The notes under the pieces: model-generated
Database searches by the model: none
Told to the model about the DNA's origin: nothing
What the model saw: only the letters and a program-made list of their open reading frames with translations
From: Wohlfahrtiimonas chitiniclastica DSM 18708
Lineage (GTDB): Bacteria; Pseudomonadota; Gammaproteobacteria; Cardiobacteriales; Wohlfahrtiimonadaceae
Assembly (NCBI RefSeq): GCF_000375345.1
Contig: NZ_AQXD01000003.1
Location: 62,001 to 126,000, forward strand
Length of the DNA: 64,000 nucleotides
Direction of reading: 5' to 3'
Position numbers and translations under genes: made by a program
Shown here: piece by piece, positions 1,152-43,708 of the stretch
Layout of the letters: each line of letters starts with the position of its first letter
How positions within the stretch are numbered: position 1 is the first letter of the stretch

Positions 1152-2576
1152 ATGAGTGGATTATTACAATTTATCGTTAATCTTGGCTATTTTGCCACGG
1201 CGATCACTTTTATTTTTGCGCTCAAACGCATGAGCCATCCTTCAACAGCACGTTCAGGGATTGTTTGGGCAGGTTACGCGATGGCTTTTGCCACCCTCAT
1301 CACCTTCATTCATCCTGATGTGCATAGTAACTACTTACTCATCATCATCGCCATTTTAATCGGTGGCATCATTGCGAACATTACGGCAAAAAGCGTCAAA
1401 ATGACGGACATGCCACAAATGATCGCCATTTATAACGGTGTGGGCTCAGCCTCTGCAGCATGTATTGCTGCCATCACATTGCTTCGTACAGGCACATTGG
1501 TGGAATTACACAGTGGCGCAGACTTTAGAAGCGTACCGCCTATGCTGTTGTTAGCGGGCATTGGTGGTTTAATCGGTGTGATCTCCTTTACTGGTTCCAT
1601 CATCGCATGGATGAAATTAGACGGTCGCATGAACAAAACCGTGCGCATCAAAGGTCGTAACCTCATCAATGCAGGTTTATTGATGGCAGCCATTTTATTT
1701 GTGATCATGCTGGCTAATGTGGCACCCGATGCCACACACCCAGATTACTTCTATGTGGTTTTATTGTTTGTGGTGGCATCTGCATTAGGCATTTTGATCG
1801 CCATTCCAATTGGCGGCGCGGACATGCCTGTGGTCATCTCTTTATTCAATGCGTTAACAGGTTTAGCTGTGGCATTTGAAGGGATCGCAACCCATAACTA
1901 CGGCTTAGTGGTTTCCGGTATGGTTGTGGGTGCAGCGGGTTCTTTATTGACCATTTTAATGGCCAAAGCGATGAACCGTTCATTGTCTAACGTATTGTTC
2001 TCTAACTTTGGTGATGCACAAGCCAGTGCTGAAGAGATCACGGGCAGCTTAAAGCCAGTGGGCGCAGGCGATGCAGCGATGACCATGGCGTATGCGCAAA
2101 AAGTCATCATCGTTCCGGGGTATGGTTTAGCAGTGGCGCAAGCGCAGCACAAAGTGGCTGAATTGACAAAATTGCTTGAAGATAAAGGCGTGGATGTGAA
2201 ATTTGCCATCCATCCTGTGGCCGGTCGTATGCCAGGACACATGAACGTATTGCTTGCAGAAGCTGGCATTCCTTATGACTTGATCTTTGACTTAGATGAA
2301 ATCAACGATGAGTTTAAAGACACGGATGCGGTTTTAGTGATCGGTGCAAACGACGTTGTGAACCCTGTGGCACGTACAGATAAATCCAGCCCAATTTATG
2401 GCATGCCAATCTTAAATGCGGACATGGCAAAACAAGTGTTTGTGATTAAGCGCGGTCAAGGCGCGGGCTTCTCTGGCATTGAAAACCACCTCTTCTACCT
2501 CGACAATACCAACATGGTGTATGGCGATGCTCAGAAGATGGTCAATGATATGATTGCTGCAGTTAAATCTGTGTAA
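1152..2576 (+). CDS. pntB: NAD(P) transhydrogenase subunit beta
   Basis: Beta subunit of transhydrogenase: an N-terminal membrane half (about residues 1-265, some eight or nine hydrophobic helices) and a C-terminal NADP(H)-binding domain. The latter shows the PGYGLAVAQAQ nucleotide-binding loop near residue 325, then HPVAGRMPGHMNVLLAEA and the VIGANDVVNP motif. The 474-residue length is normal for the family. Last gene of the pnt operon, with a strong hairpin terminator 15-40 bases after its stop. The operon is expected to supply NADPH for biosynthesis. Confidence 0.97.
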   Translation: MSGLLQFIVNLGYFATAITFIFALKRMSHPSTARSGIVWAGYAMAFATLITFIHPDVHSNYLLIIIAILIGGIIANITAKSVKMTDMPQMIAIYNGVGSASAACIAAITLLRTGTLVELHSGADFRSVPPMLLLAGIGGLIGVISFTGSIIAWMKLDGRMNKTVRIKGRNLINAGLLMAAILFVIMLANVAPDATHPDYFYVVLLFVVASALGILIAIPIGGADMPVVISLFNALTGLAVAFEGIATHNYGLVVSGMVVGAAGSLLTILMAKAMNRSLSNVLFSNFGDAQASAEEITGSLKPVGAGDAAMTMAYAQKVIIVPGYGLAVAQAQHKVAELTKLLEDKGVDVKFAIHPVAGRMPGHMNVLLAEAGIPYDLIFDLDEINDEFKDTDAVLVIGANDVVNPVARTDKSSPIYGMPILNADMAKQVFVIKRGQGAGFSGIENHLFYLDNTNMVYGDAQKMVNDMIAAVKSV

Positions 2577-2592
2577 TCAGTTCTGCATCATT

Positions 2593-2618
2593 AAAAAAGC
2601 CGACAATGTCGGCTTTTT
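2593..2618. terminator. Bidirectional rho-independent terminator (pntB / aspartate dehydrogenase)
   Basis: A GCCGAC/GTCGGC stem is flanked by six A on the left and six T on the right. It lies between the convergent pntB and nadX-like genes and can serve both. Confidence 0.9.
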
Positions 2619-2643
2619 TATTGTCTAAATTTCATCAATCAAT

Positions 2644-3435
2644 TTATGCAATGACCATGGGATTGATTAAATCATAACAAAAACGCACCACACTCATCGC
2701 AGCTAATTGCGAGGTTTTCGGGTTATCCTTAAGGGGATCACCTTCAATCACCAATGCTAATTGCCCAAAAGCGCCGCGTGCCTTCACTTGATGTTGATTG
2801 CGACCAATATTCGGATCTGCAGTGAGCTCCACTGTTGTTTGATCCATGCCAATGCCTGCCAACGCAAGGGTTGCTGCCACATTGGTATTGGCAGGAAATA
2901 GCTGAGCAGCCTCCCGAGCAGTCCCACGATAAAATGTGACCGCGTCTGTCAATTCAGATAAATTCACCAAATGCTCCGCATGGCTCCCTTGCCAACCGGC
3001 AGGCGGCTTTCTGCCTTGATAGATCACTTCATCTAAGCCTGCATGCTTCGCAGCACTCAATGCATCAACACCTGCAATCGCCCCAGATAAAATATGCAAA
3101 CGGCTGCCATATTTTTCCGCGGATGCCACCATCGATTGCTGCCATTGATCATCTGCAAATGCACCGACAGAAATGATGCCAATCGGCACGCCAAAGGCAA
3201 TGGCTTTCGGTAAATGCATTTGTAGGGCACTTTGCCCTGCCACTTCAATCACCGCATCGGGCGCGCCTTGAATGTCATCAATATTTGACACCACTTGAAT
3301 GTGGCTACCCACTTCATGCTGCACCGCTTGAACCTTGCCCTCACGCACCACCAACCATCGAATGGCCATCTCTTTAGGCAATGCTTGCATCACCACTTTT
3401 GCCATTGCACCATAACCCACCATCAGAATTTGCAT
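2644..3435 (-). CDS. nadX: L-aspartate dehydrogenase (NadX-like)
   Basis: Predicted NAD(P)-dependent oxidoreductase converting L-aspartate to iminoaspartate or oxaloacetate, which can feed NAD synthesis in place of L-aspartate oxidase. The N-terminal Rossmann loop is VGYGAMAK (about residues 6-13). The C-terminal half carries FPANTNVAATLALAGIG and the DPNIGRNQH segment typical of aspartate dehydrogenase. Length 263, normal. A GGGAG sequence precedes the ATG. It is not next to nadA/nadB/nadC here, so the link to NAD synthesis comes only from family knowledge. It is transcribed divergently from the helicase gene. Confidence 0.85.
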   Translation of the reverse strand: MQILMVGYGAMAKVVMQALPKEMAIRWLVVREGKVQAVQHEVGSHIQVVSNIDDIQGAPDAVIEVAGQSALQMHLPKAIAFGVPIGIISVGAFADDQWQQSMVASAEKYGSRLHILSGAIAGVDALSAAKHAGLDEVIYQGRKPPAGWQGSHAEHLVNLSELTDAVTFYRGTAREAAQLFPANTNVAATLALAGIGMDQTTVELTADPNIGRNQHQVKARGAFGQLALVIEGDPLKDNPKTSQLAAMSVVRFCYDLINPMVIA

Positions 3436-38518: not shown

Positions 38519-40255
38519 CTAAATGGACACATCCACAAGCTCAAAGGCTTTCACATCGAATAAACCATTGGACGTGAGTTTAATCTCAGGAATCACTGGC
38601 AATGTCATAAAGACGAGCGTCATCAAAGGATGAAAAGCATCCGAGAGGGCAAATTTTTCACGCGCTGTGTGAATGAGATGATCAATCACAGTCGCCACGG
38701 CTTCTGCACTTTGATTTGTCATCAAGCCACCAATCGGTAAGGGTAAATGCGCCAACACTTTCCCATGTTGTACTAAAGAAAAGCCGCCGCCCATGGCTTC
38801 AATGTCTTTAACGGCGCAAAGCATGTCTGCATCATTGTCGCCCACCACCACAATATTGTGGGAATCATGGGCCACAGAAACGGCAATCGCACCATTTTTC
38901 AAGCCATAACCAGACAAAATACCCAGCCCCATATTGCCCGTGGCATGATGGCGCTCGATCACTGCCAACTTATTGAGCCCAGGATTTAGATCAGCCTGAA
39001 ACTGCCCGGCTGCATCACGCGCGACTGTTAATGTGAGATTTTTGGTCACCACACTTTTAGGAATCACGCCGATGGCTCGCACTTGATCACTCGTTAAAGA
39101 CAAAGCAAAATCCGCTTCACAAATGGGCGCGATGTTGATGGTATTGAGCACATCTTCACAATGATATTCCGGCAACTCCACCAACATTTTGCCATCGCGC
39201 GCCACTTCTTGCCCCATGGAAAACACATGGCGCGGCGCAAACTCTATCAGATCATTGACGATCAATAGATCCGCATCCTTACCCGGTGCAATCGCACCTT
39301 TATCATACAAGCGGAAACATTCAGCGCCATTGAGGGTTGCCATCGTCACGGCCAATAAAGGATCGATCCCATATTCCACCGCTAAACGCAGACTTTTGTT
39401 GATGTGCCCTGTGGTTAAAATGTCATCAGGCTCACGGTCATCCGTACAAAATACGCAGCGGCGCGCATTGCTTGGCGTCACTGCGGGCAATAGATTCAAT
39501 AAATCCTTACAGGTTGAACCTTCACGCAGCAAAATGTATTGCCCCATCGTCAAACGCTTTAACATGCCTTCTGTGTCCGAGCACTCATGATCCGTCATGA
39601 TGCCCGCTGCCACATACGCCGTTAAATCCAGCCCTTTCATGCCGGGGCTATGACCATCAATCACACGATTGTGACGCTTCGCCATCATGATTTTGTTCAT
39701 CATTTTATCTTCATGATGCGTGACGCTTGGATAATCCATCACTTCGCCTAAGCCTAATACGCCATCATCGGCAAACAGTGGCTCAAGATCTTCTGCCTCT
39801 AACACAGCGCCCGCAGATTCAAAAGGTGTGGCAGGCACGCAAGATGGCAATTGAATTTTCACATGCAGCGGCAAATTGCGGCTGGCATCGAGCATATATT
39901 GAATGCCCTTCACGCCGCATACATTGGCAATTTCATGCGGATCGGCAATGATGGTTGTGGTGCCAAACGGTAAAATGGTGCGTGCAAATTGCACAGGCGT
40001 TAATGAGGAAGACTCAATGTGCACGTGCCCATCAATGAGCCCTGGCATCACAATGCCACCTTTGGCATCCACAATGTTTTTGGCATCATAATCATGGCCA
40101 ACGCCCACAATTTTACCGCGCCCAATGGCGAGCGGTCCTGGCATCAACCTTTGGTTATACACATCCACCACCTGACAATTGATGATGAGGGTATCAACCG
40201 GCATGCGCCCGGCTGCCATGTCAATCACAGCATTGAGATTCTCTTTATCCAACAT
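38519..40255 (-). CDS. ade: Adenine deaminase
   Basis: Converts adenine to hypoxanthine and ammonia for purine salvage; amidohydrolase superfamily, 578 residues. Metal and catalytic motifs are complete: GLIDGHVHIESS (about 80-91), IIADPHEIANVCG (about 110-122), IDGHSPGMKG (about 206-215), TDHECSD and VFCTDDREPDD (about 285), with the adenine-deaminase C-terminal domain. Start 40255 is fixed by AAGGAGGAG just upstream, which begins inside the end of the preceding gene. Third gene of the permease-paralogue-ade operon, followed by a terminator. Confidence 0.94.
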   Translation of the reverse strand: MLDKENLNAVIDMAAGRMPVDTLIINCQVVDVYNQRLMPGPLAIGRGKIVGVGHDYDAKNIVDAKGGIVMPGLIDGHVHIESSSLTPVQFARTILPFGTTTIIADPHEIANVCGVKGIQYMLDASRNLPLHVKIQLPSCVPATPFESAGAVLEAEDLEPLFADDGVLGLGEVMDYPSVTHHEDKMMNKIMMAKRHNRVIDGHSPGMKGLDLTAYVAAGIMTDHECSDTEGMLKRLTMGQYILLREGSTCKDLLNLLPAVTPSNARRCVFCTDDREPDDILTTGHINKSLRLAVEYGIDPLLAVTMATLNGAECFRLYDKGAIAPGKDADLLIVNDLIEFAPRHVFSMGQEVARDGKMLVELPEYHCEDVLNTINIAPICEADFALSLTSDQVRAIGVIPKSVVTKNLTLTVARDAAGQFQADLNPGLNKLAVIERHHATGNMGLGILSGYGLKNGAIAVSVAHDSHNIVVVGDNDADMLCAVKDIEAMGGGFSLVQHGKVLAHLPLPIGGLMTNQSAEAVATVIDHLIHTAREKFALSDAFHPLMTLVFMTLPVIPEIKLTSNGLFDVKAFELVDVSI

Positions 40256-40265
40256 ATTCTCCTCC

Positions 40266-42068
40266 TTAACCTTTGATGCGGCCATGGCTACAGCTACATT
40301 TTAAAACAGGTTCTGTCACCGCTTGGGCAGCAAAATCAATGACGCCTAAATCCGTAATGGCAAAATCTGGAATCGCCGTAATTTGTAAACAACACATGTA
40401 AAAAAGCGGATCCGGCAAATTGCACCCTAATTGACGGGCAAGCATTAAGAGCTTTTCTTCTTCTTTAGCCATCGCTTCAGGCTCTAAATCAGAGACAATC
40501 CCGGCAATCGGTAAGGGTAAGAAGCCTAAAATCTCGCCATCTTTGACGATCACTTGCCCGCCGCCATTGCTGGCTAAATGGTTCACGGCCAATGCCATGT
40601 CTTCGCTGTTTGTGCCGATGCACACCACGTTGTTATCATCTGGGGCACACGAGCTTGCCATTGCGCCCGCATTCAATTGCCAACCCGACACAAAGCCCAC
40701 CGCAGGCTTCACATTCGTGATGCCAAAGCGCTCAATCACCGTGGCATATAACACATCTTGCTCAATGTCTGGCAGGACGATGCCATTTTCGACATTCAAT
40801 TCCACATCGCGGGCTTTACGCACAAAGGGTACATCAAAATCCACAGCGAGCGATAAAGCATGCACGCGGTCACTCTCAAGTTCTGTGCGCACACACATGT
40901 CAACAGCTTGAACAGGTTGCATCTTCATGGTGTTCAATAAGAGAGGGCTACGCACGGGCGGCGTCAATGTTTTGCTCATTTTGCCATCGGTGACCACTGT
41001 TTCCCCTTTGGCAATCACGCCATCGATCTCAAATTTCACCAAATCTTCCACCAAGAGAATATCCGCATAGCGCCCAGGGCTGATTGAACCCACTAAATGG
41101 TCAATGCGATAAGCTTCGGCTGAGTTCAAGGTGCCCATTTGAATGGCAGTCAATGGATCAACGCCGCTTTGAATGGCCATGCGGATCAATTTATCCATGT
41201 GCCCATTGGCCAAGATTTCTGAGGCCACCACATCATCCGTACAAAAACTCACGCGGCGCGCCACACGTGGATTTAAATGGGTGACGATCTTCATGTTCTC
41301 TTCTAAAAAGTGAGAAATGGAGGATTCACGAATGATGACAAACATACCTTTACGCACTTTTTCCATCATCTCTTCATGATTATAGCTTTCATGATCAAGG
41401 CGTACGCCCGCGCATAAGACTGAATTGAGTTTCTCGCCGCGATTCATGGGCGCACAACCAAAAATGGGCAAGCGATTTTCACGCGCAAGCTCTAAAGCAC
41501 GCATCACATCCGGATGCTTATTTTCCACAAACTCGGACACAGTTTCCCAAACACCATACACTTCTGGCCATTTTTGTACCGTTTCATGCACTTCTGCCGT
41601 CACATTGAACGCCACATTGCTTTGCGGCAATGTATACGGCGTGAAAAAAGGTAAGCCCCAAAACACATGCAGTGGTAATTCATCAATCTCTGCCAAAACC
41701 TCTTTGATGCCTTCTAAACCTGTGGTCACCACATATTGATCAAGCCCCGAGACAATGCTCGTGGTTCCATGTGGAACCACCGCTTTAGCAAAACTGGTCA
41801 TGGACAATTTGCTGCATTCAATGTGCAAATGCCCATCAATTAAGCCCGGCACCAAATATTTGCCTTTGGCATCGATGATTTCTGTGGATTGCCCAATGTA
41901 AGCATCCACATTGCCAGTGGCAACAATTTGTGTTTTGTAAATGGCCACATCCGCAGGATAAATCTCGCTTGATGTAACATTCACCAATAAACCGTTTTTA
42001 ATGACACGATCTGCGGGGATTTTTGCAGCACCTGCATCAATCATTTCTTGAATGGATTCTTTTCTCAT
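40266..42068 (-). CDS. Adenine deaminase paralogue with altered metal-site motifs
   Basis: 600-residue paralogue of the next gene. It keeps GLIDGHLHIECSKL, RLDHESYNHEE and SFCTDDVVASEILANGH, plus the adenine-deaminase C-terminal domain. Two blocks differ: IIADPHEIANV of true Ade is replaced by IVSGLDQYVVT, and the GHSPG histidine block reads GCAPM. These positions carry metal or substrate ligands in the family, so it may act on a different purine, or be a non-catalytic partner. The C-terminus adds a Cys-rich tail (KCSCSH) near the end. It lies between the permease and ade with short gaps, clearly co-transcribed. Confidence 0.85.
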   Translation of the reverse strand: MRKESIQEMIDAGAAKIPADRVIKNGLLVNVTSSEIYPADVAIYKTQIVATGNVDAYIGQSTEIIDAKGKYLVPGLIDGHLHIECSKLSMTSFAKAVVPHGTTSIVSGLDQYVVTTGLEGIKEVLAEIDELPLHVFWGLPFFTPYTLPQSNVAFNVTAEVHETVQKWPEVYGVWETVSEFVENKHPDVMRALELARENRLPIFGCAPMNRGEKLNSVLCAGVRLDHESYNHEEMMEKVRKGMFVIIRESSISHFLEENMKIVTHLNPRVARRVSFCTDDVVASEILANGHMDKLIRMAIQSGVDPLTAIQMGTLNSAEAYRIDHLVGSISPGRYADILLVEDLVKFEIDGVIAKGETVVTDGKMSKTLTPPVRSPLLLNTMKMQPVQAVDMCVRTELESDRVHALSLAVDFDVPFVRKARDVELNVENGIVLPDIEQDVLYATVIERFGITNVKPAVGFVSGWQLNAGAMASSCAPDDNNVVCIGTNSEDMALAVNHLASNGGGQVIVKDGEILGFLPLPIAGIVSDLEPEAMAKEEEKLLMLARQLGCNLPDPLFYMCCLQITAIPDFAITDLGVIDFAAQAVTEPVLKCSCSHGRIKG

Positions 42069-42091: not shown

Positions 42092-43393
42092 TTATAAAAA
42101 AATGTAGCGCAACAAAAATAAGAGCGCCATTAAACCGGTACAAACCGTAATGTCTTTGAATTTTCCTGCCACCAATTTCAGCACCACATACGTGATGAAA
42201 CCTAAGGCAATGCCTTCTGTGATGGTGAATGTAAAGGGCATCGCAACAGCTGCGACAAAAGAGGGGGTGGCTTCTGTAAGATCATCCCAATCAATTTTAG
42301 AGAGCTCGGAAATCATCAAAACGCCAATGTAAAGCAATGCCCCTGTGGTGGCATACAGGGGAATCATCTTCTCAAGGGGTGAGAAAAAGAGGAGCGCCAA
42401 AAATAAAATGCCCACTGCAAAAGACATCAAACCAGAGCGACCACCGACCGCAACGCCTGAGGCGCTTTCAATGTATGCCGTCACCGCAGATGTGCCCATG
42501 TATGAGCCCACAGCAGAAGCACTACTGTCAATCAATAGGGATTTTTGTTGATTTGGATAATGCCCTTTGTCATCGGCTAAACCGGCTTTGGTGGTCACGG
42601 CAATGAACGTGCCCGATGATTCAAATAAGTTAATCAACATGATGGATACAATGACGCCCACCATAGAGAAACTTGCGATCTCTTTAAATTCCAATTGCCC
42701 GGTGACTGGCGCAATGGAAGGCGGCATACTGACTAAACCATGATAAGAGACTTCAGGATCCACAACTAAAGCAATGGCTGTGATCACCACAAAGGAGATC
42801 AATACAGAGGCATACACATTGCGCTGCGCTAAGGCAATCACAATCAGGAAACCTAAAGATCCCAAAATGAATGACAAACTTTTTGGATCACCAAGTGCCA
42901 CCATCGTGTCAGGATTCGCCACAATGATGTGAGCATTATGCAGACCAATCAACGTGATCAATAGCCCACAACCCACACTGATGCCAATGCGCAGCGAGTG
43001 AGGAATGTTTGAAACCATCCAATAACGGATTTTAAAAAGCGACAATAGAAAAAGAGAGACGGCACTTAGGAAAATGAGCGTCATGCCTGTTTGCCAAGTG
43101 AGGCCATTTGACCCCACTAATACATACGCAAAATAAGCATTGATGCCCATACCGGGCGCGAGCGCAATTGGCAGTTTTGCCACCACACCCATCAACACAG
43201 AGGCAATGGCAGTGATTAACACCGTGGTGACAAAAACAGCTTGTGTGTCCATACCGGCGGCGCCCAAGATTTTTGGGTTCACAAACGCGATATAGACCAT
43301 CGTAATGAAGGTGGTGAAAGCAGCGATGAGTTCCTGCTTGAGGGATGTATTGTGGCGCTTTAGTTCAAAGTATCGCTCAATAAAAGCTAACAC
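42092..43393 (-). CDS. NCS2-family purine permease (AzgA/AdeP-like)
   Basis: Proton-linked nucleobase transporter, 433 residues and about 12-14 hydrophobic helices. AzgA-type signatures: GAAGMDTQAVFVTT near 44, PIALAPGMGINAYFAY (about 74-89), INLFESSGTFIAVTTKAGL (about 254-272) and YIESASGVAVGGRSG (about 310-324). It likely imports adenine, hypoxanthine or guanine to feed the deaminases behind it. Start is GTG at 43393 with AGGAG 6 bases upstream; an in-frame TAG at 43403-43405 excludes any longer start. It is preceded by a long structured leader. Confidence 0.92.
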   Translation of the reverse strand: MLAFIERYFELKRHNTSLKQELIAAFTTFITMVYIAFVNPKILGAAGMDTQAVFVTTVLITAIASVLMGVVAKLPIALAPGMGINAYFAYVLVGSNGLTWQTGMTLIFLSAVSLFLLSLFKIRYWMVSNIPHSLRIGISVGCGLLITLIGLHNAHIIVANPDTMVALGDPKSLSFILGSLGFLIVIALAQRNVYASVLISFVVITAIALVVDPEVSYHGLVSMPPSIAPVTGQLEFKEIASFSMVGVIVSIMLINLFESSGTFIAVTTKAGLADDKGHYPNQQKSLLIDSSASAVGSYMGTSAVTAYIESASGVAVGGRSGLMSFAVGILFLALLFFSPLEKMIPLYATTGALLYIGVLMISELSKIDWDDLTEATPSFVAAVAMPFTFTITEGIALGFITYVVLKLVAGKFKDITVCTGLMALLFLLRYIFL

Positions 43394-43640
43394 GGGTGAC
43401 TCCTAGATAATAGATGTTGCATCATGTGTGATGCGCGAGAAGGTAACTTAAGTTTGTTTTTCTTATGGGTATGTCTTTAAGTCACCTCCTTCACCTATTT
43501 AATCTAGCGTCGCCTAGCGAATGTTAGAAAGGAGGAGGATACAGCGATGCTGATCCCGCGGTCGCGGTATCTTTGGGGGTATCAAAATGCGATAGAACAT
43601 TTTCTTCCTTGTGCGCTGTATTCAGTGAAAAATAAGTTTC
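43394..43640 (-). promoter_or_regulatory. Long structured leader RNA of the purine operon (riboswitch candidate)
   Basis: About 240 nt of transcribed leader with no credible ORF. On the RNA strand: P1 ATACAGCG (43614-43621) pairs with CGCTGTAT (43539-43546), closing about 67 nt that holds an AAAATG/CATTTT hairpin and a TGATACCC/GGGATCA helix with a CCGCG/CGCGG alternative. Next, CCTCCTT (43529-43535) can pair with AAGGAGG (43485-43491), while the overlapping GGTGACTTAA (43477-43486) can pair with TTAAGTTACC (43442-43451). A GCATCA/TGATGC hairpin (43419-43434) precedes the ribosome binding site. Classic purine-riboswitch sequence motifs are absent. Confidence 0.6.
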
Positions 43641-43642
43641 GT

Positions 43643-43670
43643 ATTTTATGCCTCTTTTTTCGAAAGTCAA
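43643..43670 (-). promoter_or_regulatory. Promoter of the purine operon
   Basis: Minus strand TTGACT (43665-43670), 16-base spacer, TAAAAT (43643-43648), placing the start of transcription near 43636 just upstream of the P1 helix. Confidence 0.8.
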
Positions 43671-43674
43671 TCAT

Positions 43675-43708
43675 AAAAAAAAGCCACAACCCCGAAGATT
43701 GCAGCCTT
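43675..43708 (-). terminator. Terminator of the RhtB-type exporter gene
   Basis: Minus strand GCTGCAATC/GGTTGTGGC stem with G-T pairs and a TTCGG loop, followed by T8. It separates the exporter gene from the purine promoter. Confidence 0.8.

Follow-up and report, generated by a model that had tools for sequence, protein, structure and literature searches.

A genus-restricted structured leader hides the start site of a purine permease operon in Wohlfahrtiimonas and may act as a ribosome-controlled attenuator

Operon and promoter

A minus-strand operon for purine uptake and deamination in Wohlfahrtiimonas chitiniclastica DSM 18708 is preceded by a long leader, which raises the question of whether this leader is a regulatory RNA and, if so, of which kind. 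The window analysed was a stretch of 64,000 nucleotides (contig NZ_AQXD01000003.1, positions 62,001 to 126,000), in which the leader is located 5' of the permease gene, followed by adeA and adeB.

42092-43393, minus strand: permease of the NCS2/Xan_ur_permease family (Pfam PF00860)
40266-42068, minus strand: adeA, a divergent adenine deaminase paralogue scoring below the NCBIfam ade cutoff
38519-40285, minus strand: adeB, an adenine deaminase (ade equivalog; TIGR01178, 601.7 bits, cutoff 472.5)
43643-43670, minus strand: sigma-70-type promoter TTGACT-16-TAAAAT, identified by sequence match, with the -35/-10 elements kept in W. larvae and W. populi

The products of adeA and adeB were 33% identical, and the substrate of the former may be another purine. 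Both tandem genes (38519-42068, minus strand) were co-conserved with the permease gene in Orbus, Klebsiella indica and Leminorella, and the gene order permease-deaminase-deaminase was found again in Orbus hercynius, K. indica and Leminorella. In the stretch examined of a genome from the same family (G007), the permease and the first deaminase were present. The closest named record was Wohlfahrtiimonas sp. G9077, the permease of which was 99% identical to that of the window.

A preliminary description of this DNA had placed transcription initiation near 43636, far from the permease GTG, on the basis of the TTGACT-16-TAAAAT promoter, and we located the promoter at the same position. A single match of this kind in the region is about what chance would give. 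Both hexamers (-35, TTGACA; -10, TACAAT) were in place in W. larvae and W. populi, while the spacer and the upstream DNA had diverged, with no convincing alignment between the window and these species upstream of the promoter. The promoter call is supported because the positions of the two hexamers were kept while the spacer and everything upstream diverged. Its position predicts a transcription start near 43636-43641 and a leader of approximately 245 nt. A terminator-like hairpin (43680-43708, minus strand) follows the upstream LysE/RhtB-type exporter gene, with about 10 nt separating the end of the hairpin from the leader promoter. No intrinsic terminator was found inside the leader, so control is probably translational.

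Predicted structure of the leader

43539-43621, minus strand: three-way junction closed by P1 (folding z -2.9, consensus fold, variable columns outside the helices)
43621-43614 with 43546-43539, minus strand: P1 helix, ATACAGCG paired with CGCTGTAT
43603-43597 with 43590-43584, minus strand: P2, an inner hairpin (43603-43584) enclosed by P1
43571-43564 with 43559-43552, minus strand: P3, an inner hairpin (43571-43552) enclosed by P1
43387-43527, minus strand: long imperfect hairpin of about 40 pairs burying the permease ribosome binding site (RBS; z -6.0, consensus fold), with strands CUAACAUUCGCUAGGCGACGCUAGAU...AAUAGGUG (from 43527) and CAUCUAUUAUCUAGGAGUCACCCGUGUUAG (to 43387)
43490-43476 with 43451-43438, minus strand: apical helix, AAGGAGGUGACUUAA with UUAAGUUACCUUCU
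43400-43404, minus strand: permease Shine-Dalgarno sequence AGGAG, with the start codon GTG at 43391-43393

The whole leader folded more stably than shuffled sequences (z = -4.3). The P1 domain (43537-43622), in which an 8-bp helix closes a junction with two inner helices as previously described, outperformed 198 of 200 shuffles (z = -2.9). The strongest-folding part was 43384-43533 (z = -6.0, no shuffle as good); the preliminary description had only hinted at it as further pairings leading to the RBS, and these pairings are present and constitute the main structure. Both the Shine-Dalgarno sequence and the GTG of the permease are buried in this long predicted hairpin, and the start codon was predicted to be nearly fully paired in the free leader of every species (unpaired probability 0.01-0.10).

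Two further segments of this hairpin were recorded. The sequence AAGACAUACCC (43466-43475, minus strand), on the 5' side of the predicted apical loop, was fully conserved, and no pairing partner for it was found. The sequence AAGGAGGTGA (43482-43491, minus strand), a perfect 10-nt Shine-Dalgarno-like complement of the 16S rRNA 3' end, was kept in all leaders and may be a decoy, a standby site or a mere pairing strand. A second ORF following it was rejected, as its start codon was not conserved.

Conservation and selection

43514-43600, minus strand: predicted 28-codon upstream ORF (uORF) MFYRILIPPKIPRPRDQHRCILLLSNIR*, preceded by the Shine-Dalgarno-like AAGGA, with start, length and stop kept in all leaders
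43466-43533, minus strand: 68-nt block identical across all three distinct leaders, comprising the uORF stop, the anti-RBS strand and AAGGAGGTGA

The leader was present in all four Wohlfahrtiimonas genomes with a permease orthologue, in three distinct sequences. Between the window and W. larvae or W. populi, the permease gene differed at 21% of bases and at 65% of four-fold sites, close to saturation, whereas only ten columns varied between the uORF AUG and the last base of the 68-nt block. An identical stretch of 68 nt beside nearly saturated four-fold sites points to selection on the RNA itself, and the leader is under strong selection at the nucleotide level.

The leader of the window alone was folded, and the positions of differences in the other species were then mapped onto the structure. 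Variable columns made up 21 of 140 paired and 46 of 113 unpaired positions (Fisher p = 6.6e-6), and rotating the structure 252 times never gave as strong an avoidance of helices. In the consensus structure, 97.7% of cells were paired, compared to 31-44% with slid partners. No predicted pair had changed on both sides among the three distinct sequences; the homologous leaders are so nearly invariant in their helices that they offer almost no covariation. The structure is thus supported by folding energy and by the location of variation, without covariation.

Distribution and the riboswitch alternative

The leaders of three species were searched against Rfam 15, at the gathering threshold and at E 5-10; all matches were unrelated, scored far below threshold and are attributable to chance, and no riboswitch family (purine, NMT1/xanthine, 2'-dG, preQ1, ykkC/guanidine, TPP, FMN) was among them. 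The preliminary description had likewise found no match to the classic purine, ykkC/guanidine, TPP, FMN or PreQ1 motifs. The xanthine/NMT1 type, which it raised as a possibility, does not hold, since the leader fits neither the Rfam model nor the two-stem fold published for that class (PMC7373994). Two covariance models, R1 and R2, built on the whole leader and on the P1 domain, gave no credible match among 32 genomes of the order or 369 sampled Gammaproteobacteria, in large scans run with stricter filters under which weak matches may be lost. Three weak R2 matches in the class and one weak R1 match in the order were treated as chance because their loci had no recognisable purine genes. The leader motifs were also absent at the related operons of Orbus, K. 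indica, Leminorella and G007, and together these results indicate that the leader is not a widespread riboswitch class. No match was found in a plasmid collection, nor in viral contigs searched with the exact pattern. A mobile repeat was rejected, as the genome held no second copy of the leader.

In Leminorella grimontii (L039, approximately 2550-3000), the operon is preceded by PurR-like palindromes (GCAAACGTTTGC) and by a short ORF (MKTVLLVGFIKT) with a strong terminator-like hairpin after it, suggesting different control of the same genes.

Like riboswitches in general, the leader is a conserved RNA structure 5' of a functionally linked gene. A riboswitch restricted to the genus, in which the P1-P2-P3 junction, perhaps with the conserved core, would bind a purine and toggle the RBS hairpin while the uORF was a chance frame, would account for the conserved joining segments UACCCCC and AGCA, for variable columns lying almost all in loops and joints, and for the purine genes downstream. 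Sequestration of the RBS is the common platform of NMT1 riboswitches of Proteobacteria, which are likewise associated with purine-related genes (RF03054; PMC7373994). However, NMT1 consists of two stems, P1/P2a-P2b, with a conserved internal bulge (PMC7373994), whereas in the fold predicted here P1 closes a junction with two hairpins. The guanine, adenine and 2'-dG riboswitches (RF00167 and variants) share the three-stem junction and the purine genes, but gave no Rfam match here even at E 10. The absence of homologues from the sampled Gammaproteobacteria and the orthologous operons also speaks against a riboswitch, as do the diverged joint of about 12 nt between P1 and P2 and the lack of a clear alternative pairing between the P1 domain and the expression platform: the best one tried, CCUCCUU/CUCCUUC with AAGGAGG, could form but would cost 11-15 kcal/mol relative to the best fold. 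We therefore regard a riboswitch as possible but rather doubtful. The structured regulatory leader suggested initially is upheld by conservation, folding energy, helix-avoiding variation and the buried RBS. Its candidacy as a riboswitch is not established: no Rfam family matched, the leader occurred in a single genus among the genomes covered, and an equally conserved uORF offers a ribosome-based route.

The upstream ORF

The uORF, overlooked in the preliminary description, begins with AUG at 43600 and ends with UAG at 43514; its Shine-Dalgarno sequence and AUG lie within the P1 domain. Its distance to the predicted transcription start was equal in all leaders. A Shine-Dalgarno-like sequence was kept in all species although about 12 nt before the AUG had diverged; in W. 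larvae and W. populi it is a differently placed GAGGA, and the peptide reads MFYRILIPPKIPRERDQH[C/S]CISFLSNIR. The final codons, UCU AAC AUU CGC UAG, make up the very strand to which the permease start GUGUUAG is paired in the predicted fold.

Substitutions in the uORF (about four synonymous and six non-synonymous) were near the chance ratio and all fell at positions that the RNA fold can accommodate; its conservation could therefore be a by-product of selection on the RNA. It is not very improbable that a 28-codon ORF with a weak Shine-Dalgarno sequence would arise in a 245-nt leader by chance. With a codon adaptation of 0.45, the uORF ranked lower than each of 1638 gene windows and fell among the values of out-of-frame windows. 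A run of rare codons (ATA, ATA, CGA, CGG) is present, but 7% of out-of-frame windows were as low in codon use, and it was dropped as evidence for this reason. A search for the peptide in the class gave only partial matches of 48-56% (E ~0.02), which were treated as chance.

A ribosome-controlled switch and its alternatives

A modelled ribosome footprint at the uORF stop lowered the cost of opening the permease RBS from 9.7-12.7 to 1.5-6.8 kcal/mol in the three sequences, and the drop was seen at all four mRNA lengths modelled per sequence. Footprints at uORF codons 5, 15 or 22 hardly changed this cost. The gain was smallest for the window sequence with 40-60 nt of coding sequence included, where the pairing probability of the start codon stays high because the start re-pairs elsewhere. 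Neither kinetics nor unwinding by helicases enters the energy model, and the same opening would follow from any other block on this strand. Since the uORF stop is positioned where a ribosome would unlock the permease start, the leader looks like a translation switch.

The leader is a genuine, genus-restricted cis-regulatory element that hides the permease start site. It combines a conserved uORF, with Shine-Dalgarno sequence and stop, and an RBS whose accessibility depends on ribosome position in the thermodynamic model, as in attenuators; we have moderate confidence that it is a cis-acting translational attenuator controlled by the ribosome on the uORF. The 28-codon uORF would be translated, and with a ribosome on its early codons the hairpin further down would stay intact (OFF). 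If a ribosome paused at the UAG or on the final codons before it, it would cover the CUAACAUUCGC-UAG-GCGAC strand and free the permease RBS (ON), allowing synthesis of the permease and probably of the deaminases too. The pause might be triggered by slow codons, by release-factor or tRNA status, or by a small molecule that acts on the growing peptide. The P1 domain may set the frequency of uORF initiation, possibly through ligand binding.

Such an attenuator has precedents in layout. The leader of the spermidine exporter operon mdtJI of E. coli is 278 nt long and contains the 34-codon uORF mdtU, which ends 106 nt before the AUG and has a predicted pairing of its 3' end with the RBS (PMC7815308). 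The present leader is similarly long (~245 nt), with one uORF of 28 codons that ends about 120 nt before the gene and is likewise predicted to pair with the RBS through its 3' end; it differs in preceding purine uptake and deamination genes and in having been found only in Wohlfahrtiimonas, and the likeness drawn here is one of layout. In the mdtU-mdtJI and speFL leaders, whose layout the present one matches, ribosomes on the uORF are thought or have been shown to reshape the leader RNA (PMC7815308). Release is inhibited at the uORF stop in SpeFL and TnaC (PMC7815308; PMC10314930), and stalling at or near this stop reshapes the leaders of speF and tnaAB, as is proposed for the present one.

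A more specific form of the attenuator would be a sensor of purine status that needs the ribosome, through arrest of the peptide (MFYRILIPPKIPR...SNIR*) at the stop in response to adenine or another purine, or through a junction aptamer governing uORF initiation, with the RBS of the adenine permease as output; we consider this improbable. We know of no purine-sensing arrest peptide.

There is also a slight chance that the leader is a docking site for a trans-acting sRNA or a protein that binds RNA (CsrA-, Hfq- or Rho-type), by which the RBS hairpin would be opened or closed: the 68-nt identity covers predicted unpaired bases (the AAGACAUACCC loop, AUUAAAU) that helices leave unexplained, and the leader has GGA motifs and C-rich stretches. 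A constitutive structured 5' UTR that merely keeps expression low or shields the mRNA would fit a hairpin that is very stable in all species, but is highly unlikely, as near-invariance including the loops exceeds the needs of a simple brake.

Significance

Related operons elsewhere carry no trace of the leader, and the same genes therefore seem to be controlled differently from one lineage to another. The leader adds an uncatalogued, strongly conserved regulatory element with a testable switch to adenine salvage in Wohlfahrtiimonas. Should the uORF sense a purine, purines would join amino acids and polyamines among the metabolites sensed by leader peptides.
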